Source: Candidatus Polarisedimenticolia bacterium (lineage in GTDB: Bacteria; Acidobacteriota; Polarisedimenticolia; Gp22-AA2). Taken from it: a DNA stretch of 46,339 nucleotides. Positions 5,260-35,273 of the stretch are shown one piece after another. The notes under the pieces were generated by a model that had not been told where the DNA came from, searched no databases, and saw only the letters and a program-made list of their open reading frames with translations. The stretch is taken from NCBI GenBank assembly GCA_036001465.1, contig DASYUH010000053.1:1-46339 (forward strand). The letters run 5' to 3'. Numbering within the stretch: the stretch's first letter is position 1; each line of letters starts with the position of its first letter. The position numbers were made by a program, and so were the translations under genes.

Positions 5260-6279
5260 TCAGAACCGGCGGATGAACCCGGCCAGCACCACGTAATCCG
5301 CGAACGCGGCGTCCCCCTGGCCGCCGTCTTCGATGTCCGGGACGCTCCTGACCCTGTCGCGGTGCAGCGCCCAGGGAACCATCAACGAAACGGTGTAGGA
5401 GCCCTTGCTGTAGCTGAAGCCCGGCTCGACGGAGGTGGCGTAGCCCGGGCGGCGGAAGCCGTGGCTGTCGCCTATCAGGTCGTGAGTCGGAATCCCCTCC
5501 ATGCGTCCACCCAGGCTCAGCCCGATGTGCTGCGTGGGAAACCAGGTCACGCCCCCCCGGTAGAGGTACTGGTCCGCGACGGACATGATCTCCTCTCCGG
5601 CGCCGCTCCGGTAGGTCGCGACGCCGTTCTTGCCTTCGGGATTGATCAGATACGTCCCGGTGACATAGAGCGCGCCTTTGTTCTTGGCGAAGCGGTAGAA
5701 ACCCTGCAGATCCATGATCGTGCCGAAGCCGCCGTCGCCGGGCTGGATCGACTGGTCCACGGTGCGGACCACGTTCTCGGTCTCGAACGTGCCCGGCACG
5801 GTCGGCGTCGTGTCGCGAATCACCCGGGTGTCGTGCACGTTGTCGGCGCCCGTGGGCAGCTTGACCCCGAAGCCCAGCGCGATGTTGTATTTCGTCTGCT
5901 TGGTCGGATCGAACATCCAGCGCCGCGGCGTGATGCTGATGTCGCCCATGCCCCGCGCCTGCGTCTCGGAGCGCATGACGACCGGGTCGTTGCCGAACTG
6001 GTTGGGGGGCTGGAACGGGTCGCGGATCGCCTGCGATCGGACCGCCATCAGATAGGGGATCCCGACCGTCAGGCTCCAGCGAGGGGTGTACGTCCGGGTG
6101 ATCGCCAGCTCGAGCTGGTGGATCCGGTTGATGACCTGGCTCCCCTCGGCCTGGCGTTCGGTGTCTTCATGGCTTCCGGTGAAATGGCGATCGGACTTCT
6201 GGTAGCGCCACGAGAACGCCACGGACCAGCTGTCCGGCTTGCCGAAGGCCTCTTCCGCGCCGAGCACGGGCGCGTTCAT
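5260..6279 (-). CDS. Outer-membrane beta-barrel transporter-like protein (lacks its signal peptide)
   Basis: From the first downstream ATG the product is 339 residues of alternating amphipathic strands rich in aromatic residues, ending in VVLAGFIRRF with the terminal Phe typical of outer-membrane barrels. Segments such as FGVKLPTGADN resemble the broad transporter/phenol-degradation barrel family; no substrate can be named. This start has no signal peptide or good ribosome site. The same frame continues upstream to an ATG at 6390 with a typical signal peptide, interrupted by TGA at 6294-6292. The natural gene is probably 5260-6390 and is either inactivated or carries a sequencing error. The gene converges on the kinase with a 4-nt gap. 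Confidence 0.72.
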   Translation of the reverse strand: MNAPVLGAEEAFGKPDSWSVAFSWRYQKSDRHFTGSHEDTERQAEGSQVINRIHQLELAITRTYTPRWSLTVGIPYLMAVRSQAIRDPFQPPNQFGNDPVVMRSETQARGMGDISITPRRWMFDPTKQTKYNIALGFGVKLPTGADNVHDTRVIRDTTPTVPGTFETENVVRTVDQSIQPGDGGFGTIMDLQGFYRFAKNKGALYVTGTYLINPEGKNGVATYRSGAGEEIMSVADQYLYRGGVTWFPTQHIGLSLGGRMEGIPTHDLIGDSHGFRRPGYATSVEPGFSYSKGSYTVSLMVPWALHRDRVRSVPDIEDGGQGDAAFADYVVLAGFIRRF

Positions 6280-6601: not shown

Positions 6602-8938
6602 TCAGGGTATCCAGTACCAGGCCTTGACGCGGGCCCAGCGGATGGCGGGGCGGAAGATCACGTCCCAGAGCGGGCGCCGGCCGGCGGCGATCTTGGCGTA
6701 GCCGGTCATGTCGGACTTGAGGAGGCCGTCGGGGTTCGGGACCTCGGTCACCACGCGCAGGACGCGGGTCGAGGCGCCGGGGATCTGCAGGGCGGCGAGA
6801 TCGGCCGAGTCCTCCTGGACGATCGCGGTGGTCGAGGTCCGTGATGCGGGGGCCGCGACGGGGGCGATGCTCACCACGCGGCCTTCAATCGGGGTATCGT
6901 GCCACGTCCAGGCGATCAGGCGGACGGGCGCCCCGGGCCGGACCTCGCTGACCTCCTCCTCGCTCACTTCCACCTCGGCCCGCACCGTGCGCGCGTCCTC
7001 GATCTCCATCACCAGGTCGCGCTGTCCGGGCTTCAGGTACATGCCGGAGACCAGCTCGACGTCGGGCGTGACGACGCGTCCGGCGATGGGGCTCGACAGC
7101 GTGGTGCTTTCGAGATCGGCGAGGTAGTCGTCCGCCAGGGCCTGCAGCGCCTTCTGATCGGCGAGGAGCGCACGCACCTGCTCCTCGCGGGACGGGCTGA
7201 TGATCAGGTCGAGGTCGGCGAGCGCCTCCTGCAGCCGGGAGGCGTCCATGTCGCGCTGGTGCAGGGCGTTCTCGTAGTCCTTCTCCGAGACCAGGCCGTC
7301 CTCGAAGAGGCGGGTCACGCGCTCGGCGCGCGGCTTGCTCCACGCCAGGGCCGCCTGGGCCTTGCGCACGCCGGCCCGCACGCGCTCGATCTGCTCCGGC
7401 CTGGCGCCGCTCTCGACGAGAGCCAGCTCCGCCCGCACCCTGTCGACCTGGCCCTGCGCGGCGACCAGGTTCCGCGTCGAGGCCCGCCCGGAGAGGAGGG
7501 CCAGCGGCTGGCCGGCCTCGACCCACTGCCCCTCGCTCACCAGGACCTGCTCGACGACCCCCTCGACCTCGGAGCGGATCTCCGCGCGCTGCCTCGGCAG
7601 GAAGCGGAACGGCCCGCCGGTCTCGTAGGCGACGGGGATGAATCCGAGGGCGGCGATGGCGCCGGCCAGCGCCAGGCGCGCCCCCCAGCGGAGCGGGCCG
7701 CCGCCGCGCGCGCACAGCCAGCGGAACGGGCGCAGCTTCATGAGGACGTGGAACAGCGGCTTCTGGGCGAAGTAGACCGCCACCAGGATCGTGGCGATCG
7801 CGCCGGCCCCTTCGTACGCCGGCGTGAGCTGGCTCCAGAACATCCACAGCACGACCCCCAGGTGCAGGAAGGCGTAGAAGAACGTGAGGGCCCCGTAGAG
7901 CAGGAACCAGCGTTTCTCGCGCCGCGTGAGGATCTCGGGGAGGGGCCGCCTGAGCGTCCACGAGCCGAGGATGGCGAGCGAGCGCTCGCGCAGGCGCGGC
8001 ACCCCGATGATGCTGACGAGGAGAAGGTAGCCGTCCATCTGGACGAGCGGGTTGGCCCCGAAGAGCAGGAGACCCATCCCGGCGGCGAACGACATCGACA
8101 GCCAGAAGAGGTTGGCCGCGGAACCGGGGGCGGTCAGCCACCAGCCGATCGTCCCCACTCCCCAGACCAGGAGCTGGTAGAAGATGCCGGAGAAGATCGC
8201 CCAGCGGCGCTTCTCCTTCCCGGCGACCCAGATGATCTCCCCCCAGTCGCAGTACAGGGCGGGCATGACGTAGTAGAGAAGCCCCAGCCCGATTCCGGAG
8301 ACCTGCCCGCCGCAGCGCTTGCACATGATGCCGTGCACCAGCGCCCGCGGGCTCTGGACCACGAAGCACGACAGCGCCATGGTGAGGGCGACGAACCCGG
8401 GCGACCAGTGGAGCCAGACGGCATGGGTGTAGGCGCCGAAGCGGAGCGCCAGGATGACGGAGGAGGCGGCGAGCGCGGCGGCCCCGGCGTACTGCGCCGG
8501 GCGGCTGAACAGCCACCCGAGGCGGCGGCCGAGGGCCGCCAGGAAACGGTCTCCCTTCATCAGCCTGATCCGGGCGAGCGGCAGGAAGACCTCGGGGTCG
8601 AGGATCTCGGCGAAGGTGCGTCGCCGCTGCCGGGCGCTCACGTCGGCCAGGAGCCCCTGATCGGCCAGCTGGCCCAGGAACACCTCGAAGTCCTTCTCGC
8701 GGAGCGGCGCCCCGAACTTCTCGCCGTAGAGGGCGTAGATGTCGTCGAGGGACGTCCGGCCGTCCAGCTTCTCGCACAGGAAGGCGCCCGCCTCGCCGCA
8801 CTCGAACACGAGGAGGGTCTTCGGGTCGCGGACGAAGTGCTGCGCGGGCATCTCCCCCCTGGCCGGCCAGGAGAAATGCTCCACGTCGCTCCTCAGTCGG
8901 GGCAGCCCCTCCGCGAACCCTTCATCTCGGCCGCTCAT
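6602..8938 (-). CDS. PqqD-like / inactive M50-like membrane domain / HlyD fusion protein
   Basis: The 778-residue product ends the operon. Residues about 20-115 resemble PqqD-type winged-helix binding domains. Residues 140-450 form a multi-span membrane domain organised like M50 (site-2) peptidases. The zinc motif HExxH is replaced by HGIMC at 202-206, although the second M50 signature NPLVQMDG (296-303) is kept, so peptidase activity is unlikely. From about 455 follows an HlyD/RND-type periplasmic adaptor with a biotinyl-lipoyl hairpin, a coiled coil and a beta-barrel, ending WYWIP. This C-terminal half is homologous to the HlyD gene at 35284-36507. The ATG overlaps the TPR stop (ATGA). I infer a role in exporting the cluster product; the partner ATPase is not in the window. 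Confidence 0.82.
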   Translation of the reverse strand: MSGRDEGFAEGLPRLRSDVEHFSWPARGEMPAQHFVRDPKTLLVFECGEAGAFLCEKLDGRTSLDDIYALYGEKFGAPLREKDFEVFLGQLADQGLLADVSARQRRRTFAEILDPEVFLPLARIRLMKGDRFLAALGRRLGWLFSRPAQYAGAAALAASSVILALRFGAYTHAVWLHWSPGFVALTMALSCFVVQSPRALVHGIMCKRCGGQVSGIGLGLLYYVMPALYCDWGEIIWVAGKEKRRWAIFSGIFYQLLVWGVGTIGWWLTAPGSAANLFWLSMSFAAGMGLLLFGANPLVQMDGYLLLVSIIGVPRLRERSLAILGSWTLRRPLPEILTRREKRWFLLYGALTFFYAFLHLGVVLWMFWSQLTPAYEGAGAIATILVAVYFAQKPLFHVLMKLRPFRWLCARGGGPLRWGARLALAGAIAALGFIPVAYETGGPFRFLPRQRAEIRSEVEGVVEQVLVSEGQWVEAGQPLALLSGRASTRNLVAAQGQVDRVRAELALVESGARPEQIERVRAGVRKAQAALAWSKPRAERVTRLFEDGLVSEKDYENALHQRDMDASRLQEALADLDLIISPSREEQVRALLADQKALQALADDYLADLESTTLSSPIAGRVVTPDVELVSGMYLKPGQRDLVMEIEDARTVRAEVEVSEEEVSEVRPGAPVRLIAWTWHDTPIEGRVVSIAPVAAPASRTSTTAIVQEDSADLAALQIPGASTRVLRVVTEVPNPDGLLKSDMTGYAKIAAGRRPLWDVIFRPAIRWARVKAWYWIP

Positions 8939-10071
8939 CCGACCTCGACCTTCGCCAGGCGTTCCTTCGCGGCCTCGAGGCCGGGCTCGATCTCGAGCGC
9001 CTTGCGGTAGGCCGCGGCCGCGCTCCGGGCGTCGTTCAGCGCCCGGAAGGCATCCCCCAGGTCGAGGTGCGCCGCCGCCTTGCGGGCGTTGATCCGGATC
9101 GATGCGTGGTACTCGGCGATGGCGCGCGTGTAGTCCGCCTGCTGCGCGTGGGCGTTCCCCAGCCGCCGGTGGGCCTCGGCGTAGAGCCGGTTGTGCCGGA
9201 TCGCTTCCTGGAAGGCGGCGATCGCCTCGGCGGGCCGGTCGCGCGCCAGGTGCAGGTTGCCGATCCGGAGATGGACGCCGGCGCGGTTCGGCTTGAGGCG
9301 CAGCGCCTCCTGGTACGCCGCCAGGGCCCCGGCGTATTTCCCCTGCTCGGCATGCAGATCGCCGATCCTCAGGCGGGCCACGACCAGGGTGGGGCGGATG
9401 GCCAGCGCGGCCTCGAACTCGGCGATCGCCTCGGCGTGCCTCCTGCCCGAGGCCAGCAGGTCTCCGAGCTGCACGTGCGCCGTCGCGAGCTGCGGGTTCG
9501 TCTGCAGCGCCCCCTCGTACGCCTGGAAGGCCTCGGCGTCCTGGCCCATGGCCAGGTGGGCCCGGCCGAGGCGGAACGAGGCGAGGAGGAAATCGGGCTT
9601 CAGGCGGAGCGTTTCCCTGAACTCCTCGGCCGCCTCGACGTGGCGCTTCTGGGCCAGATAGACGTTCCCCAGGGTGAAGTGGACGAAGGGGCGGTCCGGG
9701 TTCTGCCGCAGGACCAGGAGAAACTCCTCCGCGGCCTCGTCCAGGCGCTTCTCCTGGAGGTGGATGAGTCCGAGACAGTAGTGGGCCTCGGCCAGGTCGG
9801 GATTGTGCTCCAGGGCCGCGGCGTAGCACGCGGCGGCGCGGTCCCCCTGCCTCTGCCTCAGGTAGACGTTTCCGAGACCGAAGTGCGCCATGGCGGAGTC
9901 GGGCTTCTCCTCGAGGGCCGCCTCGAACTCCCGGATCGCCTCGGCGTACTTCTTCTGCTTCAGATACAGGTTGCCGATGACGATGCGCGTCTCGGGTCCC
10001 TTCCCCATGGGGCGAAGCCGCGGGATCGGCGGCTCGCCGGGTTCGTTCGTCTCGTCCGAATCGGGTCGCAT
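8935..10071 (-). CDS. TPR-repeat protein
   Basis: After a short charged, proline-rich start, almost the whole protein (378 residues from this start) is tandem 34-residue tetratricopeptide repeats, about ten in number. The TPR pattern (G/A at 8, A at 20, P at 32) is clear, with units such as AEAIREFEAALEEKPDSAMA. There is no signal peptide, so it is likely a cytoplasmic scaffold, perhaps bringing synthases or tailoring enzymes to the downstream membrane protein it is coupled to by ATGA. I chose ATG 10071; an in-frame TTG at 10083 would add four residues but has no better ribosome site. Confidence 0.85.
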   Translation of the reverse strand: MRPDSDETNEPGEPPIPRLRPMGKGPETRIVIGNLYLKQKKYAEAIREFEAALEEKPDSAMAHFGLGNVYLRQRQGDRAAACYAAALEHNPDLAEAHYCLGLIHLQEKRLDEAAEEFLLVLRQNPDRPFVHFTLGNVYLAQKRHVEAAEEFRETLRLKPDFLLASFRLGRAHLAMGQDAEAFQAYEGALQTNPQLATAHVQLGDLLASGRRHAEAIAEFEAALAIRPTLVVARLRIGDLHAEQGKYAGALAAYQEALRLKPNRAGVHLRIGNLHLARDRPAEAIAAFQEAIRHNRLYAEAHRRLGNAHAQQADYTRAIAEYHASIRINARKAAAHLDLGDAFRALNDARSAAAAYRKALEIEPGLEAAKERLAKVEVG

Positions 10072-10087
10072 CGCTATTCTCAAAGCC

Positions 10088-18400: not shown

Positions 18401-18401
18401 C

Positions 18402-21590: not shown

Positions 21591-21913
21591 GCCGTGGCCC
21601 CCGCGCCGAGCTGCTTCTCGAGGAAGGCGGCGATCTGGGACACCTTGAGGTCGTCGACATAGTGGCCGTCGACCATCAGGAGCTCCTCGAAAGGCATCCC
21701 CTTCTTCCCGAACCGCTCCTCGACGGCCACGATCAGCATGACGATGTCGATCGACTCGAACGTCAGGTTGTTCATCAGGAACGTCTCGGGGCCGATGCGA
21801 CCCGAGAAGCCCGTGTCCCACTCCTTGGTCATCTCCTCGAGGATGTCCACGACGCCGTCCAGGACGGTTCCCCGCGGGCTGGCGGCGGCGCCTGCCTGCT
21901 GACTCTCCATCAT
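21587..21913 (-). CDS. Discrete acyl carrier protein-like protein
   Basis: At 108 residues, with helix-loop-helix character, the centre reads NNLTFESIDIVMLIVAVEERFG, where carrier proteins have D-S-L/I before helix 2. Ser54 is the expected phosphopantetheine site although the preceding Asp is Glu. The end (DLKVSQIAAFLEKQL) matches carrier helix 4. It is unlike the two carrier domains inside PKS1, so it may serve a separate loading, transfer or tailoring step. ATG 21913 overlaps the PKS2 stop (ATGA) and is followed at once by a second ATG. Confidence 0.8.
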   Translation of the reverse strand: MMESQQAGAAASPRGTVLDGVVDILEEMTKEWDTGFSGRIGPETFLMNNLTFESIDIVMLIVAVEERFGKKGMPFEELLMVDGHYVDDLKVSQIAAFLEKQLGAGATA

Positions 21914-24900
21914 TGACCCCCTTCGCACAGTGCGGTGGCGACGATCAGATCTCCATCCCTGCCGGTCCAGGCCGTGACGTCCGCGGCGTCGAGGCCGTCG
22001 ACCCCCATCCGGACGGTGCCGCGCCCGGCGTCGATCGACAGCGCCCGCAGCGCGCCGCGGGCCGAAGGGATCCCCCGCCCCAGCGCATGCGCCCCGGCCT
22101 CCTTGGCGCAGCGCATCCGCAGGGTCCATTCCGGCCGCTCGGCGATCTCCAGGGCGCCCAGCAGACGGTCCTCCTCCGGGCTGAAGGATCCGTCCTCCGG
22201 GCGCGCGCCGGCCGGCGAGACGCGCTCGGCGACGATGCCCAGCCCGCGATCCCTCCGGCCTTCACCCGCGACCGCGACCGCCACCCCGCCGCCCGAAGAC
22301 ATCGACAGGACCGGGGCGCCCCCGGCGCGCTCCACCCAGGCGCCCGAGGCGATCGGGCGCCCCAGGGCGTCGGCGCCGATCTCCACGTCGGCCGCATAGA
22401 CCGAGAGGCCGCGCCGCTCCTTCAGGAAGAGACGCACGGCATCCTTGGCGGCGGACCGGGCCAGGAGCCACTCGGTCCGGCGCCCCTCCGACCCCTGCAG
22501 GCCCCGCCAGGCCTGCCGCTCGCCGTGGGACAGGACCGTGTGCGCCAGGCCCTCGCGCCAGATCCGCCCGTCCCCCTCCATCAGGCGGTCCGGCAGGTCG
22601 AGCCGGCAGCAGACGACGCTGTCGCGCACCGGGAGCGGGGCCGGAAGGGGTGTGCTCAGGATGACATCGCGCGGCGACAGCCGGTAGGCGTAGAAGCGCT
22701 CCGGCAGATCCATGCGCTTCACGTCCCAGCCGGAAAGGCGCAGGAGGGCCCGTCCGTCCGGCGCCACCACCTCCAGGTCGGCCAGGATCTGCTCCCCGGC
22801 GGCGAGCCGGGCGCGGATCCGGCAGGCGGCCTCCGTCCCCGGCGGCGGGGCGGGCGCGAACAGATCGAGGCGCTCGAAGCCGACGGGAAAGACCACGAAG
22901 CCGCGGTCCAGGCGATTGGCCGTCCAGAAGCCGACCACCTGGCTGGCGGCGTCCAGGAGCAGCGGATCGAGGACGAGCTCCGCGTCCGTCCGCGAGCGGA
23001 ACAGCCCGCGCGCCGGCAGCACGCGCAGCGTCCCCTCCGCCCCGGCGTCGAAGGCCCGATCGATCGACACGACGCCCTGGAAGGAGGGGCCATGGAACAT
23101 GCCGTGCAGCCTCCCCTCGGCGTACAGCTCCTCCGGCGCCCAGCGAAACGCGCGGGGCTCTCCCAGGTCGGCCGGGCCGGCGGGGGGCGCGTCGGGAAAG
23201 CGCTCGCCGAGCAGGATCGTCCCCTCGACCGTGGGAAGGGGCGCGCCCCCGGCCGCCGCAGCGGTTTCGGCGATTCGCACCGTCACCTCGCGGGTGGAGG
23301 CGTTCGGGGCGGCCGTCACCTCCAGGCTCACGCGCCCTCCCGGAAAGGCCAGCCAGCGGTGCACGCGGACCGATCGCGCCCCGATCACGCGCAGTCCCGG
23401 CAGGGCGAGGACTGCGGCCTCGGCCATCATCTCGAGGCTCATGGCGAGAGGGAAGACCGGCAGCGCGCGCAGCGAGGCATCCTCCGCGATCCGCCCGCCG
23501 AGGGTGTGGTCCAGCAGGAATCTCTCCTCGTCCGGATCGAGCGCCTTCCGGAACACCAGCGAGCCGTCCGGCTCGCGCCGCGGTGGATCCGCGAGGAACG
23601 CGAGGGTCCGGCGGGCCGCGGCCGGGGCGGCTTCGGGTGCGGCGATCGGCGGGGCAGCGGGCGCGACCCGGCCGGCCCGGCCGTTGCCGCCGCGCGCCAG
23701 GACCGCCTGCATCACCTCGCTCTGCGTGGCGAGGAACCTGTCCATGGTGCGCAGGTACTCGCTCATCGCGGCGGACATTCCCTTCGGGGAGGGCGTGGCG
23801 CGGGCGATCACCGCCTGCGTTCCGCCGGTCGGCTCCGCCGGCTGGGCGGCGGCCGATCCGGCAGCGGCGGCCCGGGTGGCCACCTCCCTCCGGGCGGCCT
23901 CGGCGCGCGCGGCCACGCCGCGGACGAGAGCGTCGTCCAGACGGAGTTGCGGCAGGTCGAACGCCAGGGCCATCGACCGGTCCGGCTTCGCCGGCAGGCG
24001 CGTCCCCTCGCGGACCGGCTCCTCCGGCAGGCGGCGGGCGCCGCGGTCCGCATAGAGAGGCTCGAGCGTCAGGGGGACGCCGTGGGCGGCCAGCAGCGCC
24101 AGCAGATGGTGCAGCTGCAGCATGCCGGAGCGCGACTTCAAGTTGGAGGCCACCGCCAGGTGCGGCCGGCCGCGCAGGGTGTCCTCGACGAACGCCGTCA
24201 GGTTGCCGCGCGGCCCGACCTCCACGAAGATGCGGGTGCCGGCCGCGTACATCGCCTCGATCGTCTCGCGGAAGCGCACCGGCTTCATCCACTGCTCGAG
24301 GGCCACGCGGCGGATCTCCACGGGATCGGTCCCCGCCGGGCCGGCCGTGGCGCAGGAGTAGAGGGGGATCTCCGGGGCGGCGAAGTCGCCGCGGTCATAG
24401 TACTCGCGCAGCTCCTCGACGACGGGGGCGAAGCGGGCGGTGTGATAGGCGCGGCTGAACGGCAGGCGCTGGCAGACGGCGCCCCGGGCGCGCAGGTCGG
24501 CCTGGGCGCGGGCGATCGCCTCGTCGCTGCCGCACACGACGATCTGGTGCGGGCAGTTGTCCATGGCCAGGTCGAGCCCCGAGGCGCTCCCGGTCAGCAC
24601 GCGCAGGAGCTCCGGATCGGCCGGGCCCACCGCGAGCAGCGCCGCGGACGGCACCTTGCCGCTCTTGCGGGCGCGCTCGGTGGCGCGGTTGCCGTCGAGG
24701 ATGTAGTCGATCAGCCTCGCTTCGTCGGGGACCCGCGCCGCCCCGGCGGCCAGGAGCGCCGAGTACTCCCCGGTGCTGTGGCCGACGACGGCCCCGGGGC
24801 GCGCGCCCAGGAGATCGAGGAGGGCGAGAAGGCCCTGGTTCGCGGCGAAGACCGACTCGATGGCGCTGTCCATCTCCCACAGGCGCTGGGCCGCCTCGAT

Positions 24901-26877
24901 CCGCCCGACCGCCGGCGGCGGGAACAGGACCTCGCTCGGGACGAAGCCGCGATCGTGATCGCGGAACGCCCGGTCCATCAGGTCGAACCACTCCCGCACC
25001 TCCGGGAAGTGCAGGCACAGGTCGGCCAGCATGCCGGCGTACTGGGCCCCTTCGCCGGGGAACAGGAACGCGAGCCCTCCCGCCTCCGCGAGCGGCTCCC
25101 CGAAATGATAGATGCCGCTCCTCTCCTTGATGCGGCCGCACGCCGGATCCCCCAGGCGCTCGGCGGCGTAGGCCGCCTTCTTCTCCAGGTCCTCGAGCGA
25201 CGCGGCGACGATCGCGAGGCGGTGCGCGCCCCCCGGCGCGGCGGAGGCGGGACAGTTGACCGTCAGGGCCAGGTCGTGCGGTGCGACCGAGGGGTTCACC
25301 TTCGCGAACCGGCCGAGGGCCGAAACGCGCGCGCGAAGCTCGTCGCGCGATGGGGCCGCGACGACGTAGAGCTCCGAGTCGCGCCGGGCATGCAGGAGCC
25401 GCGGGGCCGGGGCTTCGGCCGGCGCGACGCCCGCCTGCGCCCCCGACAGGAAGACGGCGGCCGATCGCGCGATCGCGCGCGCCGGGGCAGGGGCCTCCTC
25501 CAGAATCGCATGGGCGTTGATGCCGCCGAAGCCGAAGGCGCTCACGCCGGCCCGGCGCGGCTCGTGGCCGCCGTGGATCCAGGGCCGGGTCTGCGTGTTG
25601 AGGTAGAAGCCGCTCCCCAGGAGCTTCGGATGGGGCGCGTCCCCTCCGAGCGTCGGCGGCAGGATCCTGTGATGCAGCGCCAGGGCCGTCTTGATCAGGC
25701 CCGCGGCGGCCGCCGCCGGGATGCAGTGGCCGATCATCGACTTGACCGAGCCCACCGGGAGGCGCGGCTGCCCGTCGCCGTCGCCGAACACGCGGCGCAG
25801 CGCCTCGATCTCGGTGGCGTCCCCCACCGGCGTGCCGGTGCCGTGCGCCTCGACCAGGCCGATGCTCCGGGGATCGATGCCGGAGGACTCGTAGGCGCGG
25901 CGCATCGCCAGCTCCTCGCCCTCGAGGCGCGGCGCCAGGATCCCCATCGCCTTGCCGTCGCTCGACGTGCCCAGGCCCCGGATGATGGCGTAGATGCGAT
26001 CGCCGTCGCGCACGGCGTCGGCGTGCCGCTTCAGGACGACGATGCCGGCCCCTTCTCCCAGGAGCGTCCCGTCGGCGTCGGGATGGAACGGCCGGATCCG
26101 CCCGCTGCGCGCCAGCGCCCCCAGCTGCGAGAACAGGAGCGCGATCGGGAAGGTCGTCGAGGCCTGGATGCCGCCGGCCAGGACCAGGTCGCACTCGCCG
26201 GTCGCGAGGCTCTTGATGCCGGCGTCCACGGCGATGAGCGACGAGGCGCACGCGGCGTCCACCGTGAAGGCCGGGCCCATCAGGTCGAGCCGGTTCGCCA
26301 CCCGGCCGACCATGACGCTGTGCGCCAGGCCGGGGGCGGTCTCCGGATTGAACGGCGGCAGGCCGGCCTTCAGGCTCCGCCGGATCGCCTCCAGATCCTC
26401 CGGGCCGTGCTCCGGGTGGAGCGTCCTGAGGAGCGACAGGACCTCGTCCACGACGATGGTGTGCTGGAAGCAGGAGATGACGCCCCGGTTCACGTACGTG
26501 CCGCGCCCGAGGATGAGCCCCGCCGCCTTGCGGTTGAACGGCCGTTCGAGGTAGCCGCTGTCCTTCAGGGCGTCGTGCGCCAGCCGCAGCGCCAGGAAGT
26601 GCTCCGGCTCGGAGCCGTCCACCGCGCGCGGCATGACGCCGTACTCCAGAGGATCGAACCGGACGATGTCGCCGAGATAGCCGCCGCGCTTGGTGTACAG
26701 CCGGTCGTTGTCGTTCGAGGACGGATCGAAGACCCGCTCCGTGCCGGAGCCGGCCGGAGGATCGCCGATGGCGTCCACCGAGCCCAGGATGTTCTCCCAG
26801 TAGGTCCTGAGATCCGGCGCCTTCGGGAAGACGCAGGCCATCCCGATGATGGCGATGTCACGCCGGCCCGGGGTCAT
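21910..26877 (-). CDS. Type I PKS/PUFA-synthase-like protein 2 (KS-AT-DH-PPTase-like)
   Basis: In order over 1655 residues: KS 5-465 with Cys210, His344 and His384, so a condensing enzyme rather than a chain-length factor; AT 600-960 with Ser701 in GHSTGEY and His812 in AYHTARF; a linker with helix RFLATQSEVMQAVL (1048-1060), also found in PKS1; a double-hotdog DH 1105-1400 with His1124 and Asp1309; and a C-terminal phosphopantetheinyl-transferase-like domain 1460-1655 (EWLLARSAAKDAVR, CAKEA at 1590-1594). In that last domain the usual GxDxE reads GIVAE (Val1549) and the SxxH-type His is lost. There is no internal carrier domain, so substrates must come from PKS1 or the free ACP. Start ATG shares one base with the PKS1 stop. 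Confidence 0.9.
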   Translation of the reverse strand: MTPGRRDIAIIGMACVFPKAPDLRTYWENILGSVDAIGDPPAGSGTERVFDPSSNDNDRLYTKRGGYLGDIVRFDPLEYGVMPRAVDGSEPEHFLALRLAHDALKDSGYLERPFNRKAAGLILGRGTYVNRGVISCFQHTIVVDEVLSLLRTLHPEHGPEDLEAIRRSLKAGLPPFNPETAPGLAHSVMVGRVANRLDLMGPAFTVDAACASSLIAVDAGIKSLATGECDLVLAGGIQASTTFPIALLFSQLGALARSGRIRPFHPDADGTLLGEGAGIVVLKRHADAVRDGDRIYAIIRGLGTSSDGKAMGILAPRLEGEELAMRRAYESSGIDPRSIGLVEAHGTGTPVGDATEIEALRRVFGDGDGQPRLPVGSVKSMIGHCIPAAAAAGLIKTALALHHRILPPTLGGDAPHPKLLGSGFYLNTQTRPWIHGGHEPRRAGVSAFGFGGINAHAILEEAPAPARAIARSAAVFLSGAQAGVAPAEAPAPRLLHARRDSELYVVAAPSRDELRARVSALGRFAKVNPSVAPHDLALTVNCPASAAPGGAHRLAIVAASLEDLEKKAAYAAERLGDPACGRIKERSGIYHFGEPLAEAGGLAFLFPGEGAQYAGMLADLCLHFPEVREWFDLMDRAFRDHDRGFVPSEVLFPPPAVGRIEAAQRLWEMDSAIESVFAANQGLLALLDLLGARPGAVVGHSTGEYSALLAAGAARVPDEARLIDYILDGNRATERARKSGKVPSAALLAVGPADPELLRVLTGSASGLDLAMDNCPHQIVVCGSDEAIARAQADLRARGAVCQRLPFSRAYHTARFAPVVEELREYYDRGDFAAPEIPLYSCATAGPAGTDPVEIRRVALEQWMKPVRFRETIEAMYAAGTRIFVEVGPRGNLTAFVEDTLRGRPHLAVASNLKSRSGMLQLHHLLALLAAHGVPLTLEPLYADRGARRLPEEPVREGTRLPAKPDRSMALAFDLPQLRLDDALVRGVAARAEAARREVATRAAAAGSAAAQPAEPTGGTQAVIARATPSPKGMSAAMSEYLRTMDRFLATQSEVMQAVLARGGNGRAGRVAPAAPPIAAPEAAPAAARRTLAFLADPPRREPDGSLVFRKALDPDEERFLLDHTLGGRIAEDASLRALPVFPLAMSLEMMAEAAVLALPGLRVIGARSVRVHRWLAFPGGRVSLEVTAAPNASTREVTVRIAETAAAAGGAPLPTVEGTILLGERFPDAPPAGPADLGEPRAFRWAPEELYAEGRLHGMFHGPSFQGVVSIDRAFDAGAEGTLRVLPARGLFRSRTDAELVLDPLLLDAASQVVGFWTANRLDRGFVVFPVGFERLDLFAPAPPPGTEAACRIRARLAAGEQILADLEVVAPDGRALLRLSGWDVKRMDLPERFYAYRLSPRDVILSTPLPAPLPVRDSVVCCRLDLPDRLMEGDGRIWREGLAHTVLSHGERQAWRGLQGSEGRRTEWLLARSAAKDAVRLFLKERRGLSVYAADVEIGADALGRPIASGAWVERAGGAPVLSMSSGGGVAVAVAGEGRRDRGLGIVAERVSPAGARPEDGSFSPEEDRLLGALEIAERPEWTLRMRCAKEAGAHALGRGIPSARGALRALSIDAGRGTVRMGVDGLDAADVTAWTGRDGDLIVATALCEGGQ

Positions 26878-29800
26878 CAGGCGCGCCCCCGCGGTCCGGC
26901 GAGGCGGTTCAGCTCGCGGCTGCAGGAAAGCTCCATGTCCTCGAGCGCCCCGAGCAGGCGCCCGCTCCCGTCCAGAAAGGCGATCTGGATGTCGAGCACG
27001 TGGCCGCCGGCGCGCGCCTGCGAGCGGAACTCGCAGCGGATCGGGGAGCCGTTGAACGGGGCGTAGCGACGGAAGCTCCGGAAGCGCGCCGGCAGCGGCG
27101 TCATGTCGTAGTGCGAGCGCGCGTACAGGATGCCGAGCTGGAAGGCGCTGTCCACCACCACCGGATCGATCAGCCAGTCCCCCGTGCCGGCGCCGCGCAC
27201 GCAGCGGGCGGGCGTCGAGGGGAGGACCGTGCCCGAGATCCCCTCCTCTCCCAGGCCCTCGATGGTGCGGATTCCCTGGAACAGGGGGCCGTGGAACAGA
27301 AGGCTCTCGTACGCCGATTCCACGCTCGTCGGGTAGGGACGCGGGTCGCGCAGGGGCGCGGGGGCCCCGGAGGCGGGCGGCGGCAGCCGGTCCCCCAGGA
27401 GGACGGTGGCCTGGTAGAAGGGCCGCCCCGACTCGGGATCGGCGATGACGGCGTCCACCGACAGCTCGAGCCTCTCCTGGCCGGGCTGCGTGGCGGCGCG
27501 CGCCCGGATGACGATCGCCCGCGGCCCGTCCTTCAGGACGACGCCCTGGAGGACGCGGAACTCCTGGATGGCCTGGACCTCCCATTCGGGCCAGCCATGG
27601 CGGACGATCTCGGCGAACAGCTCCATCGCCACGGCCGCCGGGAGGACCGGCCTGCCGTCCATCTGGTGGTCGAGCAGGAACAGGTCGGTCGCGGGATCGA
27701 GAAGGCGCCGGACCTCGATTCCGCCGCCGTCCGAGGCCCGGGCCTCCAGGCCGTCGAGCAGCGGCAGCGCCATGCGTGCCGCCCGGGCGGTCACGGGAGC
27801 GGACGCCCCCGCGTACGCGCGCCACGGCCCGTCCCCCAGGACCACGGCAACCTCCCCCTTGGCCCCCCGCTCGATCTCCTGGATGAACGCGGGGCGGCCG
27901 CCGGCGGGGGAGACCAGCTGCACACCCCGGGCGGCGAAGCGCTCCTGGACCTCGGCGGAGGCCATGCCGGACCGCCAGGGGCCCCAGTTGATCGACAGCA
28001 CCCGCCCGGGCCAGAGACGGTCGAGATGGAGCGCCAGGGCGTTGAGCGTTTCGTTCGCGGCCGCGTAATCGCACTGCCCGGCGTTGCCGAAGCGTCCCGC
28101 GACCGAGGCGAACAGGACGAAGAGCTTGAGATCTTCGGGCCGCAGTCGGCGGGCCAGCGTGAGCGCCCCGTCCACCTTGGTGCCGAACACCCGATCGAAC
28201 GACGCGGGGGTCTTGTCCTCGATCCGCTTGTCCTCGATGACGCCGGCGCCGTGGATGACGGCGTCGATCCGGCCGTAGTCCCGGTACAGGTCGTCGATGA
28301 GCCGCCCGAACGCCTGGTCGTCACGCGCGTCGACCGGCTCGTAGCGCACCGTGGCCCCGGCCCGTCGCATCGACTCGAGACGGGCGCGGATCTCCCGGTC
28401 CCGGAGGATGCGCTTGAGGTCCGTCTCGATCGCCGCCGGCGTCTGCGCCGTGCCGGAGCGGCGCGCCTCGTCGATCAGGGCGGCCTTGAGGTCGGAAGAC
28501 GAGGCGGCGCCCGAGGTTGCGGCAGGCTCGGCGGTCTCGGGAAGAGGAGTCCGTCCGGTCAGGACCAGCGTCGGCCGGTAGCGCGCGGCGAGCTCCTCCG
28601 CGATCTCGGCGGTGATGCCGCGCGCTCCTCCGGTGATCAGGACCACCCAGGACGAATCGGGCCCGGGCTCCCGGGCGGCATCGCCGGCGAGAGCGGCGGG
28701 CAGCGGGCGGACCGCGATCCGGCGGGACCCCCTGTACCCGACCTCCACCTCGTCGTCCCGGGCGGCCAGCTCCTGGAGCAGGAGGGCCGCACGCTCGTGA
28801 GGCGTCGAGGGGGCGTCGAAGTCGACCGTCTTGCAGCGCGTCTCCGGCCATTCGCGGGCGATCGTCTTGATCAGCCCGGTGAGGCCTCCCTGCCCGGGGA
28901 AGAAGGGGTCCGCCGGCTTCCGATCGAGACCGCAGGCGCCGCCCATCGCGGTGGCGACCAGGAGCCGCCCGGCGTCGCCGGCGTCCCGGAGGTCGGCGCT
29001 CGCCGCCCGCGCCAGCTCGAACAGGCCGCGGATCTCGCGATCGATCGCCGGCTTCCAGGCCGCCGGATCGGTGTCGGCTCCGGCCGCCCCGGCCGCGAGC
29101 GGCCGGAGGTGCACCACCGTCCCGATCGGGCCGTGCTGCGCCCGCGCTTCGGCGAGCGCTTCGGCGATTCCCGATTCATCGGCGGGGTCCGTGATGAGGG
29201 CCCGTCCGCCGCGCTCCTGGATCATCGCCGCCAGGGACCGGGCCGTCCCGAGCCCGTCGTCGGTGATCAGGACCGTGCGGTCCCCCGGCGCATACGGCGG
29301 CCCGCCGGCCGCGGGCAGCTCGACCGGGCGGAGCAGGAAGCGCGGAACGTCCTGTGCCTCCCTCCGCCCGGCGCTCCCCGCCGGGCGGGCCGGGGCCACG
29401 GAGTCAGCGGCCGGTGCAGAAGCTGCCGGCACGGAGGCCGGCGCGGACGCAATCGGCAGCGGCGCGACCGGGGCGGTCCCTGCGGCGGCCGCCAGGTCGA
29501 GGATGCCGCGGAGCGTCCGGATGCGCGACAGGCTCTCCATCGAATCCTGGAGCGCGTGCTGCAGATCGGCAGGGCAGGCGCGCTGGAAGGCGCCGAGGAT
29601 CTCGACCCGCTTGATCGAGTCGATGCCCAGATCGGCCTCGATGTTGAGGTCGAGATCGAGCATCTCGGGCGGATAGCCGGTGCGATCCCCGACGATGGCC
29701 AGGAGGCGCCGCTTCATCTCCTCCGCCGACAACGAGGCCGTGTTCGCGGGGCCCGCCGGCGGCGCGGCAGGGGCAGCGGCGGTCCCCGCGGCGGCCGCGA

Positions 29801-32800
29801 GGTCGAGGATGCCGCGCAGCGTCCGGATGCGCGACAGGCTCTCCATCGAATCCTGCAGCCTGTGCTGCAGGTCGGCGGGGCAGGCGCGCTGGAAGGCGCC
29901 GAGGATCTCGACCCGCTTGATCGAATCGATGCCGAGATCGGCCTCGATGTTGAGGTCGAGATCGAGCATCTCGGGCGGGTAGCCGGTGCGATCGCCGACG
30001 ATGGTCAGGAGGCGCCGCTTCAAATCTTCAGGCGGCAGGGACGCCGTGACGACGGCGGCGACCGGCAGGGTCGCAGCCTCGGCGGCCGGTCTGCTCGAGG
30101 CGGACGGGGCCGGGAGCGATTCGGCCGGCGCGCCGATCGCGGCGGCTCCCTTCCCTTCGAGAAAGGCCTGCATCACGTCCTTCTGGGTGTCGAGGAAGCG
30201 GCTCATGAGCTGCTGGAACTGCAGCACCACCTGCGCCGTGGCGTCCTCGCCGGTTGCGGCTTCGGTCGCGGCGGCGGGGGTTGCGGCCGGAGCGTCCGCG
30301 AAGGGGGTCTCCGGGGCAGCCGGCTCCGGAGCGGGCGGCTGCGGCAGGGAGACAGGCGTCAGGCGACGAGGCGGCTGGCCCAGGGGGCGCGCCGAGGCGC
30401 CGTTGACCATCCAGGTGGCCGGAGAGAGCGGCAGGGCGGCGGCGTCCGATTCGAGGTCTTTCAGGTCCAGGTCGCGCACCGTCCGGCCGCGGAACAAACC
30501 CTCCAGGTCGATCGACACGGCGTGCGCCGCCAGCTGCCCGAGGAGGTGCAGGATCTGCACCGGCCCGGGACGTCCCGGGACGTCGGACGCGACCGCCAGG
30601 TGCGGGCGCTCGCTCAGGATCTGCTGCGTCAGGCCGGTCAGGACGTTCTTCGGCCCGACCTCGACGAACAGCCGCGCGCCGGCCTGGTGCATCGCCTCGA
30701 CCTCGTCGGCGAAGCGCACCGGCTCGACCAGGTGCTCGGCCAGGAGCGCGGCGACCGCCTTCGGATCGCGCGGGTAGGGGGTTGCGGTCGAATTGGAGAA
30801 GACCTCCATCCGCGGCGCGGTGAAGGTCACCTCGGAGAGGACGGCGGCGAGCCGGTCCCGGGCGGGCGCGATGACCGGTGAGTGGAAGGCGCAGGCCACC
30901 GGCAGGGGGCGGGCCTCGATGCCGTCCTCCTTGAGGCGATCGATCGCCTGACGCACCCCCTCGCGCGTCCCGGAAATCACCGTCTGGCGCGGGGCGTTCA
31001 GGTTGGCGATCCAGACGTCCTTGATCGGCCGCAGGGCCTCGGCGATCCGGGCGGGAGTCTCGGCGATGGCCGCCATGGTGCCGAGGTCGTCCTTCGCCGT
31101 CTCGAGGATCGAGCGCCCGCGGGCCTCCGACAGCCGCGCCAGGGTCTCCTCGTCGAACACGCCGGCGGCGCACAGGGCGGCGTACTCGCCGTAGCTGTGT
31201 CCGGCGACCATGTCGGCGCGCACGCCGAACAGGTGGAGCAGGCGCAGCGCCGCCAGGCCCGCCGCCCCCAGGGCCGGCTGGGCGACGTCGGTCCGCGTCA
31301 GCGCCTCCCGGCGGGCGCGCTCCTCGTCCGGCGTGAACGCCGGGGGCGGAAACACGTAGCGACCGAGCGGCAGCGGGAGCCGGCCGGCGAGCGCGGCCTC
31401 GGCCCGCTCGAACTCGAGGCGCACCTCGGGGAAGCGGACCGCGAGGTCGCGCAGCATGTCCGGATACTGCGAGCCCTGACCGGGGAACAGGAAGGCGATC
31501 CGCCCGCCCCTGCCGAACGGCGCCTCGGTGAAATACGTCCCCGACGGATCGAAGATCGACGTCGCGCCGGCGCGCAGGCGCTCGAGCGCGGCCTGGAGCT
31601 TCCGATCCAGCTCCTCGGCCGACGAGGCGATGACGGCGAGCGTGAGCGTGGGGTCCGATCTCTCGGCGGCGCGCCGCCAGAGCGTCCAGGACAGGTCGGA
31701 CATCTGCGGGCGGGCGCCGCGCCCCAGGGCGGCCTGGACCCTCCCGACCCCGTCCTCGATCTCCCTCCGCGACGGGCCGCGCCACAGGAAGATCTCGGCC
31801 GCGGAGCGCTCCCGGAGCGCGGGCCTGTCGGGAGCGATCTCGTCGGCGTGCTCCTCGAGGACGGCATGGAAGTTCGTGCCCCCGAATCCGAACGCCGACA
31901 CGCCGGCACGGCGGGCGTGCCCCGCCGCCGGCGACAGCCACGGGCGCAGCTCGGAGTTGACGTAGAACGGACTCTCCTCGAAGCGTGCCGTGGCGTTCGG
32001 CCTCTCCACATTCAATGTAGGCGGCAGGACCTTGTGGTACAGCGCCAGCGCGACCTTCGCCATGCCGGCCACGCCGGCGGTGCACTTGGTGTGGCCGATC
32101 ATCGACTTGACCGACCCGATGGCGCACGACTGGCGGGAGGCTCCCGCCGCCTCGAAGACGCGCTTCAGGGTCGTCGCCTCGGCCTGGTCGCCGGCGACCG
32201 TGCCGGTGCCGTGCGCTTCGATCAGCCCGACGGTGGCGGGGGAGAACCCGGCCTTGGCGTAGGCGCGATCGAGGGCCCGCGCCTGCCCCTCGGGCCGCGG
32301 CGCCGTGAGGCCCTTGTCGCGCCCGTCGCTCGAGGCGGCGATCGACTTGATCACGGCGTAGATCCGGTCGCCGTCGCGCTCGGCGTCGGCCAGGCGCTTC
32401 AGCACCAGGATCGCGAGCCCTTCGCTGATGACGATGCCGTCGGCGGTCTCGTCGAACGTGCGGCAGCGGCCGCGCGGCGAGTGGGCGCGCGTCTTGCTGA
32501 AGCACAGGAACATGAACGGGTTCTGCGCCGTGTCGATGCCGCCGGCCAGGGCCATGTCGCTGCTGCCGGTCTCCAGGTCCTTGACCGCCAGGTAGAGGGC
32601 CGCGAGCGACGAGGCGCAGGCGGCGTCCACGGTGAAATTGGCGCCGCCGAGATCGAAGCGGTTCGCCACGCGCCCCGCGGCAACGTTGAGCAGGATGCCG
32701 GGGAAGGAGTCCTCGGTCCACTCCGGGAGGCGCGCCATGAGCTCGGGCATGGGGGCGTCGAAGAAGCTCGGGAGCTGCGACCGGAAGGCGTACAGGTTCC

Positions 32801-35273
32801 CCAATTCGCTGATGCCGCCGCCGGCCCCCAGGATGACCGAGGTGCGCTCCCGCGGGAAGGCGCGGTCGAGATAGCCGGCGTCCTCGAGGGCGGCGCGCGC
32901 CACCTCGAGCGTCAGGAGCTGGACCGGCTCGATCGAGGACAGGGAATTGGGCGGCATGCCGTAGCGCATCGGGTCGAACGGCACGTCGTCCACGAAGCCG
33001 CCCCACTTCGAGTAGACCCGGTCGCGCACCTTCGGATCGGGGTCGAAGTAGCGCGTCCAGTCCCAGCGGTCCTCCGGGACCTCGGTGATCGCGTCCACCT
33101 TGTCGAGGATGTTCTCCCAGTACGCGGACAGTCCCGGCGCCTTGGGCAGGAGGCAGGCCATGCCGACGATGGCAACGTCCGACGGCTTCTCGCGGGTGGC
33201 GGCCCCGGCCGTGACGACGGACGGAGCGGCACGTTCCGCCAGGCGCGCGGTGGAGGCGACCGACACGTCCCGGTGCAGCGCCTCGATGGTGCAGGTGGCG
33301 TCGCGCAGGGCGGCCACCTGGCCGATCATGAACATCCCCTGGACCTGCTGCTCCTCGGGAGTCAGCGGCTGGAGCTTCGGGGCGCCCGGGTCGCGGCCGA
33401 AGCCGGGGTGGCGATCGACCCCCTTGGAGGCGATGCGCAGTCGTCCCAGATTGAGCGCCTCGAGGGCGTTGCGGATCTCCTCGGCCGGGCGGCCCTCGGC
33501 CGTCAACCGGCGGCGCTCGCTCTCGAAGGCGGCGGCGAACGGCGAATCGACGCAGCGCGTCGAGTGCCCGGGTCCGGTCTCCAGGAGGACGGTGCGCCGG
33601 CAGCGCACGGCCGACTCCTGGAATCCGGGGACGATGGCGCCCGACGCGACCGCCTCCTCGGTGAACAGGTAGGCCGTGCCGAGGAGCACGCCGACGCGCG
33701 CGCCGCGCTCGGCCAGGGGGGCCGCCAGGGCCGCCACCATGGAGGCCGACAGGGCGTCGTGGATCCCGGCCGCGAACAGCACGTGGCACTCCGCCAGCTG
33801 GTCGGCGGGGAGCGACTCGAGAAGCGTGTCGACCATCGAGTTCCAGAGCACGAAGGACGAGCGCGGGCCGACGTGGCCGCCGCACTCGCGCCCCTCGAAC
33901 ACGAAGCGGCGCGAGCCCCCTTCCAGGAAGAGCTTCAGAAGGCCCGGCGAGGGGACGTGCAGGTAGGTCGCGATGCCGTCGCGCTCGAGCCGCCTCGCCT
34001 GGTCGGGGCGCCCGCCGGCGATCAGCGCGAAGGGAGGATGGAACTCGTCGATCGCGTCGAGCTGTTCCTGGCGGAGCTCGATCGGCACGAAGCCGAGGAT
34101 GCCCACGCCCCAGGGCCTGTCCCCCAGCACGCGGCGGGTCTCCTCGAGCAGCGCGCGCACCTCGGCCTTCCGCATCAGGGCCAGCGCCAGGAACGGCAGG
34201 CCGCCTCCCTTCGCGACCTCGAGGGCGAACGGCGCCGTGTCGCTCACGCGCGTCATCGGTCCCTGCACGATCGGATAGCGGGTCCCGTGCGAGCGGGCCA
34301 GGGGGGAACCCAGCTCGAGGGGTTTGAGCGCCACCGCCGCCTTGACATGCGACTCGATCGCCCGGCGCATCCCTTCGACGACCCCGCCGACCGTCCGGAA
34401 GCTCTTCGCGAGAGGCGCGGCGAACGCCGCGTCCTGGCCGAGGACCATCACGCGGCGCTTCGGGTCGTCCCATCCGGCGCGCTCCGCGATCCCCCGCCGC
34501 CAGTCCGCCAGTCGCCCGGCGCTTGCCGGCCCGCCATCCTGAAGGACGCGCTCGACCCCGCGCAGGTCGTCCGACGGGGCGTGGCCGGATCGGTCGTACA
34601 GGCGCCAGGTCTCTCCGAGGGCCGAGCCGAAGAGGGTCGTCTCGCTGCCGTCCATGCGGGCGATCGCCTCGCGCGCGGCGCGCCCCAGGGGCGATTCGCG
34701 CGTCAGGAGAAGCTGCGCGTCGAGCGCGATGCCCGCGGCGCCGCCCGCGCAGGCGGCCGCGGCGGTGTGCAGCCCGATGCCGCCCTGCGCGAAGACCGGC
34801 AGGGAGCCGCGCGTCAGGAGCCGCTGCAGCAGGATGAAGGTCGTCTCGTCGCCCACGCGGCCGGCCGCCTCGTGTCCCTTGGCGATGAGGCCGTCCACGC
34901 CGAGATCGGCGCCCAGAGCGGCCTCCTCCGTGGACACCGCCTCCAGGAGGACCTCGATGCCGGCGGCGCGCCAGGCGCCGATGCGCGGGCCCAGGAGCGC
35001 CGGGTCGCCGGGGGTCAGGATGACGGTGCGCACCCGGTCGGGGAGGGCGCGCGCCATGGCATCGAGAAAGGGGATGCGCGTCCCGTCGAGCTTCACGCCG
35101 CAGGCCGCGCGGGCCAGGCGCTCCAGCCGGCCGAGGGCGAGGCGGGCACCCGGCTCGTCGAAGCACAGCTCGAGATCGAGAACGCCCAGGGCGCCGGCGC
35201 GGGACGCCGCGGCGGCGACCGCGGGGTCGGCCGGCCCCGGAGGTGTCAGGCAGAGAATGCGGAACTCGCGCAT
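26877..35273 (-). CDS. Type I PKS/PUFA-synthase-like protein 1 (ER-KS-AT-ACP-ACP-KR-DH)
   Basis: The 2798-residue synthase opens with a degenerate NPD-like half (1-290) and a full FMN-dependent nitropropane-dioxygenase/PfaD-type reductase (325-610, catalytic His467 in ECGGHVG). Then come KS 695-1145 (Cys886, His1021, His1061), AT 1255-1580 (Ser1360 in GHSYGEY, His1464, malonyl-like AFHS), a helix RFLDTQKDVMQAFL (1692-1705), two nearly identical ACPs (Ser1784, Ser1886, 102 residues apart), a pseudo-KR plus KR 2000-2490 (TGGARGI at 2214-2220, Ser2390, Tyr2403) with the long insertion seen in PUFA-type KRs, and DH 2525-2780 (His2536, Asp2708). It probably catalyses iterative chain extension with full or partial reduction. 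No clear ribosome site; likely coupled to HlyD 10 nt upstream. Confidence 0.92.
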   Translation of the reverse strand: MREFRILCLTPPGPADPAVAAAASRAGALGVLDLELCFDEPGARLALGRLERLARAACGVKLDGTRIPFLDAMARALPDRVRTVILTPGDPALLGPRIGAWRAAGIEVLLEAVSTEEAALGADLGVDGLIAKGHEAAGRVGDETTFILLQRLLTRGSLPVFAQGGIGLHTAAAACAGGAAGIALDAQLLLTRESPLGRAAREAIARMDGSETTLFGSALGETWRLYDRSGHAPSDDLRGVERVLQDGGPASAGRLADWRRGIAERAGWDDPKRRVMVLGQDAAFAAPLAKSFRTVGGVVEGMRRAIESHVKAAVALKPLELGSPLARSHGTRYPIVQGPMTRVSDTAPFALEVAKGGGLPFLALALMRKAEVRALLEETRRVLGDRPWGVGILGFVPIELRQEQLDAIDEFHPPFALIAGGRPDQARRLERDGIATYLHVPSPGLLKLFLEGGSRRFVFEGRECGGHVGPRSSFVLWNSMVDTLLESLPADQLAECHVLFAAGIHDALSASMVAALAAPLAERGARVGVLLGTAYLFTEEAVASGAIVPGFQESAVRCRRTVLLETGPGHSTRCVDSPFAAAFESERRRLTAEGRPAEEIRNALEALNLGRLRIASKGVDRHPGFGRDPGAPKLQPLTPEEQQVQGMFMIGQVAALRDATCTIEALHRDVSVASTARLAERAAPSVVTAGAATREKPSDVAIVGMACLLPKAPGLSAYWENILDKVDAITEVPEDRWDWTRYFDPDPKVRDRVYSKWGGFVDDVPFDPMRYGMPPNSLSSIEPVQLLTLEVARAALEDAGYLDRAFPRERTSVILGAGGGISELGNLYAFRSQLPSFFDAPMPELMARLPEWTEDSFPGILLNVAAGRVANRFDLGGANFTVDAACASSLAALYLAVKDLETGSSDMALAGGIDTAQNPFMFLCFSKTRAHSPRGRCRTFDETADGIVISEGLAILVLKRLADAERDGDRIYAVIKSIAASSDGRDKGLTAPRPEGQARALDRAYAKAGFSPATVGLIEAHGTGTVAGDQAEATTLKRVFEAAGASRQSCAIGSVKSMIGHTKCTAGVAGMAKVALALYHKVLPPTLNVERPNATARFEESPFYVNSELRPWLSPAAGHARRAGVSAFGFGGTNFHAVLEEHADEIAPDRPALRERSAAEIFLWRGPSRREIEDGVGRVQAALGRGARPQMSDLSWTLWRRAAERSDPTLTLAVIASSAEELDRKLQAALERLRAGATSIFDPSGTYFTEAPFGRGGRIAFLFPGQGSQYPDMLRDLAVRFPEVRLEFERAEAALAGRLPLPLGRYVFPPPAFTPDEERARREALTRTDVAQPALGAAGLAALRLLHLFGVRADMVAGHSYGEYAALCAAGVFDEETLARLSEARGRSILETAKDDLGTMAAIAETPARIAEALRPIKDVWIANLNAPRQTVISGTREGVRQAIDRLKEDGIEARPLPVACAFHSPVIAPARDRLAAVLSEVTFTAPRMEVFSNSTATPYPRDPKAVAALLAEHLVEPVRFADEVEAMHQAGARLFVEVGPKNVLTGLTQQILSERPHLAVASDVPGRPGPVQILHLLGQLAAHAVSIDLEGLFRGRTVRDLDLKDLESDAAALPLSPATWMVNGASARPLGQPPRRLTPVSLPQPPAPEPAAPETPFADAPAATPAAATEAATGEDATAQVVLQFQQLMSRFLDTQKDVMQAFLEGKGAAAIGAPAESLPAPSASSRPAAEAATLPVAAVVTASLPPEDLKRRLLTIVGDRTGYPPEMLDLDLNIEADLGIDSIKRVEILGAFQRACPADLQHRLQDSMESLSRIRTLRGILDLAAAAGTAAAPAAPPAGPANTASLSAEEMKRRLLAIVGDRTGYPPEMLDLDLNIEADLGIDSIKRVEILGAFQRACPADLQHALQDSMESLSRIRTLRGILDLAAAAGTAPVAPLPIASAPASVPAASAPAADSVAPARPAGSAGRREAQDVPRFLLRPVELPAAGGPPYAPGDRTVLITDDGLGTARSLAAMIQERGGRALITDPADESGIAEALAEARAQHGPIGTVVHLRPLAAGAAGADTDPAAWKPAIDREIRGLFELARAASADLRDAGDAGRLLVATAMGGACGLDRKPADPFFPGQGGLTGLIKTIAREWPETRCKTVDFDAPSTPHERAALLLQELAARDDEVEVGYRGSRRIAVRPLPAALAGDAAREPGPDSSWVVLITGGARGITAEIAEELAARYRPTLVLTGRTPLPETAEPAATSGAASSSDLKAALIDEARRSGTAQTPAAIETDLKRILRDREIRARLESMRRAGATVRYEPVDARDDQAFGRLIDDLYRDYGRIDAVIHGAGVIEDKRIEDKTPASFDRVFGTKVDGALTLARRLRPEDLKLFVLFASVAGRFGNAGQCDYAAANETLNALALHLDRLWPGRVLSINWGPWRSGMASAEVQERFAARGVQLVSPAGGRPAFIQEIERGAKGEVAVVLGDGPWRAYAGASAPVTARAARMALPLLDGLEARASDGGGIEVRRLLDPATDLFLLDHQMDGRPVLPAAVAMELFAEIVRHGWPEWEVQAIQEFRVLQGVVLKDGPRAIVIRARAATQPGQERLELSVDAVIADPESGRPFYQATVLLGDRLPPPASGAPAPLRDPRPYPTSVESAYESLLFHGPLFQGIRTIEGLGEEGISGTVLPSTPARCVRGAGTGDWLIDPVVVDSAFQLGILYARSHYDMTPLPARFRSFRRYAPFNGSPIRCEFRSQARAGGHVLDIQIAFLDGSGRLLGALEDMELSCSRELNRLAGPRGRA
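29476..29742 (-). repeat. ACP-coding repeat, copy 2 (C-terminal ACP of PKS1)
   Basis: This segment repeats at 29782-30048 with a 306-bp period and only scattered third-position differences. It encodes the second carrier domain with the D-S-I site at Ser1886. Confidence 0.85.
29782..30048 (-). repeat. ACP-coding repeat, copy 1 (N-terminal ACP of PKS1)
   Basis: Direct repeat partner of 29476-29742, offset 306 bp (102 codons). It encodes the first carrier domain with Ser1784. The high DNA identity implies recent duplication or ongoing gene conversion. Confidence 0.85.

Follow-up and report, generated by a model that had tools for sequence, protein, structure and literature searches.

Gene neighbourhood of the fusion

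The window, meaning the whole 46,339-nucleotide stretch of DNA analysed here, comes from a soil bacterium. A gene on the minus strand at 6602-8938, correctly located by the original prediction, encodes a single protein in which an RRE/PqqD domain, a degenerate M50 (site-2 protease) domain and an HlyD adaptor are fused. The fusion and four neighbouring genes are listed below, where G004 denotes a second genome of the same genus.

6602..8938, minus strand: RRE/PqqD - pseudo-M50 - HlyD fusion, 778 residues (Pfam, NCBIfam, AlphaFold model)
8935..10083, minus strand: TPR protein, the stop of which overlaps the fusion start (ATGA) in the window and in G004
21910..26922, minus strand: second synthase subunit, KS-AT-DH (from its domains; the start codon was chosen by us)
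26877..35273, minus strand: PfaA-type synthase, NMO-KS-AT-2 ACP-KR-DH (TIGR02813, 1285 bits, cut-off 1010)
35284..36507, minus strand: HlyD-only paralogue of the C-terminal part of the fusion (56% identity over residues 45-407; Pfam HlyD)

Upstream of the fusion, on the same strand, lie genes for an esterase-like protein, two short-chain dehydrogenases, four methyltransferase-domain proteins, a hydrolase, a phosphodiesterase-like protein and the two synthase subunits, with the HlyD-only gene at the head. The latter resembles a copy of the HlyD part of the fusion together with its last membrane helix. A Pfam scan of 17 window proteins revealed neither TolC nor a pump of the ABC, MFS or RND type; a pump might be encoded in another place.

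Several other genes of the window are worth recording. The four methyltransferase-domain genes are consecutive (12651-18460, minus strand), and the last has an N-terminal part of more than 500 residues with no Pfam match; a 50% relative is found beside the G004 copy of the fusion (L056:2433-3293). A small protein encoded at 18402-19070 (minus strand) contains a strikingly acidic leucine/aspartate-rich stretch, has no Pfam or NCBIfam match and is a possible partner or cargo. Downstream of the fusion, the product of 5260-6279 (minus strand) likewise has no match in either database; by eye it is outer-membrane barrel-like, and it ends in Phe. On the plus strand, 1333-2517 encodes a predicted secreted protein with the sequence HEMGHLMGAHH, by eye an intact metzincin-like zinc motif. 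A large MopE-motif protein (36641-40852, minus strand; also L117:1-3120) adjoins the synthase. Because a relative with about 40% identity adjoins a related synthase in another genome (G343), this pairing may predate the HlyD module.

Domain architecture and predicted structure

Pfam, NCBIfam and the predicted models bore out the proposed order of a PqqD-like domain, an M50-like membrane domain and an HlyD domain. The AlphaFold model of the whole fusion had a mean pLDDT of 86.3, and its domains were assigned as follows.

8636..8908, minus strand: PqqD/RRE domain, residues 11-101 (Pfam PF05402 over cut-off; VIA fold match)
7637..8554, minus strand: pseudo-M50 membrane domain, about residues 129-434 (model; VIA site-2 protease matches)
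6629..7636, minus strand: HlyD / membrane-fusion adaptor domain, about residues 435-770 (PF16576 and TIGR01730 over cut-off)

The PqqD profile matched residues 44-97 with 27.9 bits (PF05402, cut-off 23.4), and the N-terminal part of the fusion resembled the lasso-peptide RRE TbiB1 (5v1v; VIA Z 10.8, rmsd 2.4, 85 aligned residues). With both a profile match and a winged-helix RRE fold, this domain is predicted to have the peptide-binding RRE fold. The further proposal that it recognises cargo was not supported; it derives only from the fold, and no cargo or precursor peptide was identified in the window. At the other end of the protein, a barrel-sandwich profile and fold were found together: the Pfam HlyD profile matched residues 449-703 (69.6 bits, cut-off 30), TIGR01730 scored 100.4 bits (cut-off 94.9), and the structural matches were MacA, EmrA and MexA (VIA Z 14-17).

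Between these two domains the models predict a polytopic membrane domain. Full-length fold searches were dominated by HlyD rows; the middle part folded alone gave a pLDDT of 88.2 and a pTM of 0.82. Its five best VIA matches were all site-2 protease entries (RseP, a RasP model and MjS2P; Z 8.4-7.8, rmsd 4.2-5.0, 136-169 aligned residues), followed by a row at Z 5.1. Foldseek placed the site-2 protease structure 3b4r first, at an E value of 0.69 and with no match below 0.001, and the family profile retrieves the same structure (profile positions 74-106, E 0.0093). The M50 fold that was to be checked by structure prediction was thus recovered, and the middle domain appears to keep the site-2 protease fold, with moderate similarity. 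The Pfam M50 profile PF02163 gave no match in the fusion at E 0.01, whereas 45 of the 49 rows of our family alignment do match. Of the features of an active M50 protease, the fusion therefore has the fold and an NPxxxxDG motif with its ligand Asp, and lacks the HExxH motif and the PF02163 match.

Loss of the catalytic motif

In this family the zinc ligands are two His and an Asp, and a Glu serves as the general base. For site-2 proteases, the roles of the HExxH and LDG motifs are stated in the available part of a published account (PMC10978774). The corresponding stretches of the fusion are listed below.

8333..8347, minus strand: degenerate HExxH, RALVH, residues 198-202 (HExxH at this place in 47 of 49 aligned rows, RALVH in the window and G004)
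8030..8053, minus strand: retained NPxxxxDG, NPLVQMDG, residues 296-303 (alignment; D302 kept, N294 just before it changed to Gly)

The register is set by the 49-row alignment, in which HExxHGxxCK of the relatives is aligned with RALVHGIMCK of the window: 47 rows have H-E-x-x-H at residues 198-202, followed by G-x-x-C/L-K. The original prediction had taken HGIMC (residues 202-206) for the broken HExxH, which the alignment shows to be wrong. The Glu is lost as had been claimed (E199A), but the missing His is the first (H198R) and not the second, which is kept as H202. Retention of NPxxxxDG was read correctly. We also considered HGIMC, with C206, as a displaced metal site and rejected it, because these residues belong to the HGxxCK that normally comes after HExxH. 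Cys is present at position 206 in 32 of the 47 intact rows, so C206 is no replacement ligand; C230 occurs in 29 of the 47.

Five pocket residues (H198, E199, H202, N294 and D302) are each fixed in all 47 alignment rows other than the window and G004. These two alter three of them (H198, E199 and N294, the last to Gly) and keep H202 and D302. Since the altered residues are invariant in all other rows, the pattern is not due to chance. Besides the pocket motifs, seven columns with 85-100% conservation across the family differ in the window; altogether, 12 of 35 strongly conserved columns are changed, two of them outside the core (129 and 148). No HExxH, displaced or otherwise, occurs anywhere in the 778 residues. 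With the general base and one zinc ligand gone and no displaced motif, the sequence makes it very unlikely that the pseudo-M50 domain is catalytic, as had been proposed.

Rarity of the dead form

Across 396 genomes of the phylum, the search gave 80 places in 63 genomes, and a whole-class search (41 genomes) gave no further place. Leaving aside three places that are second pieces of genes counted before (L026, L032, L033) and three places without an M50 part (L110-L112), 74 M50-bearing genes remained. HExxH is kept in 72 of these (47/49 in the first set and 25/25 among those fetched later). The two exceptions are the window and G004. A scan of the species collection for further dead forms found only the G004 contig itself (QHXY01000227.1, 'Acidobacteria bacterium isolate gp22 AA3'), so that the dead form is known from two sequences, each in a fragmented assembly. 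Among plasmid relatives (25 plasmid records matched), HExxH is kept in all five examined.

The two dead fusions are 74% identical and share both RALVH and G294; the occurrence of these changes in two genomes means that they are no sequencing error. In G004, a frameshift at about residues 132-145 splits the fusion; an assembly error and a real break are both possible. The genome of the window also has an intact paralogue (HESAH, 32% identity) on another contig, C87, where no other gene of the window cluster was recognised on the 40 kb examined. No intact paralogue was found in G004 by the phylum search (this genome is 88% complete).

In both dead-form genomes the fusion occurs together with an HlyD-only gene and a PfaA-type synthase. 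In G004, the HlyD-only gene (71% identity to that of the window) is followed by the same synthase, on a contig different from that of its fusion. The three other members of the genus that were searched (G001-G003) have neither fusion nor synthase. Related synthases occur in six more genomes from the phylum sample, none of which is among the 63 with a fusion match. The fusion is thus an accessory to such synthases and is not required by them.

Constraint on the dead active site

Across residues 191-235, which span the dead site, the window and G004 are identical at 43 of 45 positions, with a dN/dS of 0.035; this and the other dN/dS values for the dead form come from this one pair. The excess identity is significant (hypergeometric P 3.5e-6), for a stretch that was picked after viewing the alignment. 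Conservation in the fusion peaks at the pocket region: dN/dS was 0.062 for the NPxxxxDG stretch, 0.291 for the whole pseudo-M50 domain, 0.385 for the whole protein, 0.515 for HlyD and 0.588 for residues 146-190. Intact relatives gave 0-0.193 over residues 191-235 (8 of 10 pairs gave a value), and the dead pocket is therefore constrained as tightly as the live one. Over the whole M50 domain, the intact pairs with a value ranged from 0.107 to 0.249, and the window pair evolves somewhat faster.

In the tree, the stem of the pair measures 2.01 changes per column and its tips 0.28 and 0.12, and one motif change is needed; with a quick method and so long a stem, the exact placement of the pair is unsure. 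This shape is consistent with rapid change at first and constraint afterwards. The low dN/dS over the dead site supports the view that the domain has been kept for a use other than cutting, and we conclude that the fusion is a fixed pseudoprotease and no decaying relic.

Comparison with known systems

The closest counterparts are the other RRE-M50-HlyD fusions, which share the kind of fusion and the NPxxxxDG motif with the window protein but keep the HExxH that it has lost (72 of 72 other phylum genes outside the dead pair, and 5 of 5 plasmid relatives). Public annotations call such proteins 'site-2 protease family protein', 'PqqD family protein' or 'biotin/lipoyl-binding protein', and a literature search found no paper on their function. 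Three plasmid loci (L064, L065 and L066) have, like the window, a second HlyD-type gene near the fusion; their neighbours are very large surface proteins, not a PfaA-type synthase. There, intact M50-HlyD fusions stand just behind the surface-protein genes (LEPR-XLL or LamG-like). TolC is present in two of the three loci, and the annotation of the roughly 8.5 kb displayed contains no ABC gene. This arrangement is possibly an undescribed secretion system.

The best NCBIfam match is NF041824, which describes MpaP, the daptide RRE-fused intramembrane site-2 protease. It covers residues 45-391 (E=3.5e-31) with 108.7 bits, below the curated cut-off of 300. In MpaP, as in the window protein, an RRE is joined to an M50 domain; the window protein differs in lacking the catalytic residues and in having an HlyD arm. 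Leader-peptide removal is ascribed to MpaP in the available part of its description (PMC10036551).

MacA-, EmrA-, MexA- and DevB-type periplasmic adaptors have the HlyD domain and fold in common with the window protein. They serve ABC, MFS or RND pumps, unlike the window adaptor, which is joined to a dead protease in a window with no recognised pump gene. A functional S2P homologue without HExxH is already on record: EGY3 of the plant chloroplast, described in the available text as stabilising other proteins (PMC10978774). Absence of HExxH is what it shares with the window protein; EGY3 is a eukaryotic organelle protein, for which that part of the source mentions no RRE or HlyD domain. Site-2 pseudoproteases (EGY3), RRE-fused site-2 proteases (MpaP) and annotated HlyD fusions are thus already known. 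What is new is a dead RRE-M50-HlyD form with a frozen pocket.

A proposed non-cutting hub of an adaptor complex

The preserved dead active site suggests that it now holds something rather than cutting it. We tentatively favour, at somewhat less than even odds, a reading in which the fusion is a fixed non-cutting descendant of the phylum-wide RRE-M50-HlyD fusions and acts as the pocket-bearing membrane hub of an adaptor complex. The membrane domain would provide a chamber for binding and a hub for assembly. Docking of a peptide, partner or carrier at the cytosolic RRE domain would load the pocket, and the old protease groove would hold, without cleaving it, a membrane-embedded segment or an acyl or polyketide product. 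The fused HlyD arm could then form one periplasmic adaptor ring with its HlyD-only partner, the gene of which lies upstream of the synthase, and this ring would hand the cargo on to the outer membrane. That the fusion has a cargo and exports it is something we infer, and the conserved pocket need not bind cargo, as packing of the fold might by itself account for it. The original prediction had offered two uses for the domain, a membrane channel and a substrate-binding part of an exporter. Nothing was found that argues for a channel, and the substrate-binding part is the more likely of the two.

The closest rival is that the dead M50 domain, with no ligand in its groove, acts only as a membrane anchor and spacer and so determines how the HlyD ring is arranged. 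The HlyD-only paralogue lacks an M50 part and presumably gets by with a single membrane helix, and H202, D302 and the glycines could be retained for packing. We nevertheless regard a bare anchor as rather unlikely. An anchor should drift, as residues 146-190 do (dN/dS 0.588), and this reading offers no reason for the stronger conservation of the old active site (0.035) relative to the adjacent membrane helices.

A more specific scheme is a pump-less exporter, in which the dead protease chamber, loaded by the RRE, would be an inner-membrane receptor or conduit that feeds the HlyD tube and delivers the product of the PfaA-type lipid/polyketide synthase; we consider it improbable. Similarly improbable is a pseudoenzyme regulator that binds the substrates of an active M50 protease or pairs with one, for instance the HExxH paralogue encoded in the window's own genome. 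iRhoms, which act on other proteins, provide an EGY3-like precedent for it. EGY3 itself, a pseudo-S2P that stabilises other proteins in the available text of PMC10978774, is a second one. The intact paralogue in the window's own genome fits such a role, but it lies on C87, with no other cluster gene recognised on the 40 kb examined there, and the search that found it returned none in G004.

The pocket might instead have been remodelled, with a metal still bound, or other chemistry carried out, by H202 and D302 together with Cys or acidic residues nearby. H202 and D302 are indeed kept, and C206, C230 and E234 lie within the conserved stretch. Against this, both Cys residues are common in intact relatives and so cannot count as new ligands, no base remains with Ala at position 199, and the Arg at 198 is unfavourable for a metal; we find this reading very doubtful. 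Finally, a decaying relic or a motif created by sequencing error, for which the frameshift in the G004 copy could be cited, is highly improbable given identical substitutions in two genomes and the low dN/dS over the dead site.

RRE-M50-HlyD fusions recur in many genomes. With its protease off and its pocket frozen, this natural member allows the cutting role to be told apart from that of a membrane hub for an adaptor, two functions that are hard to disentangle elsewhere. The fusion is a bacterial counterpart of the plant pseudo-site-2-protease EGY3, and it offers a direct test of whether a site-2 protease chamber can act as a binding module.
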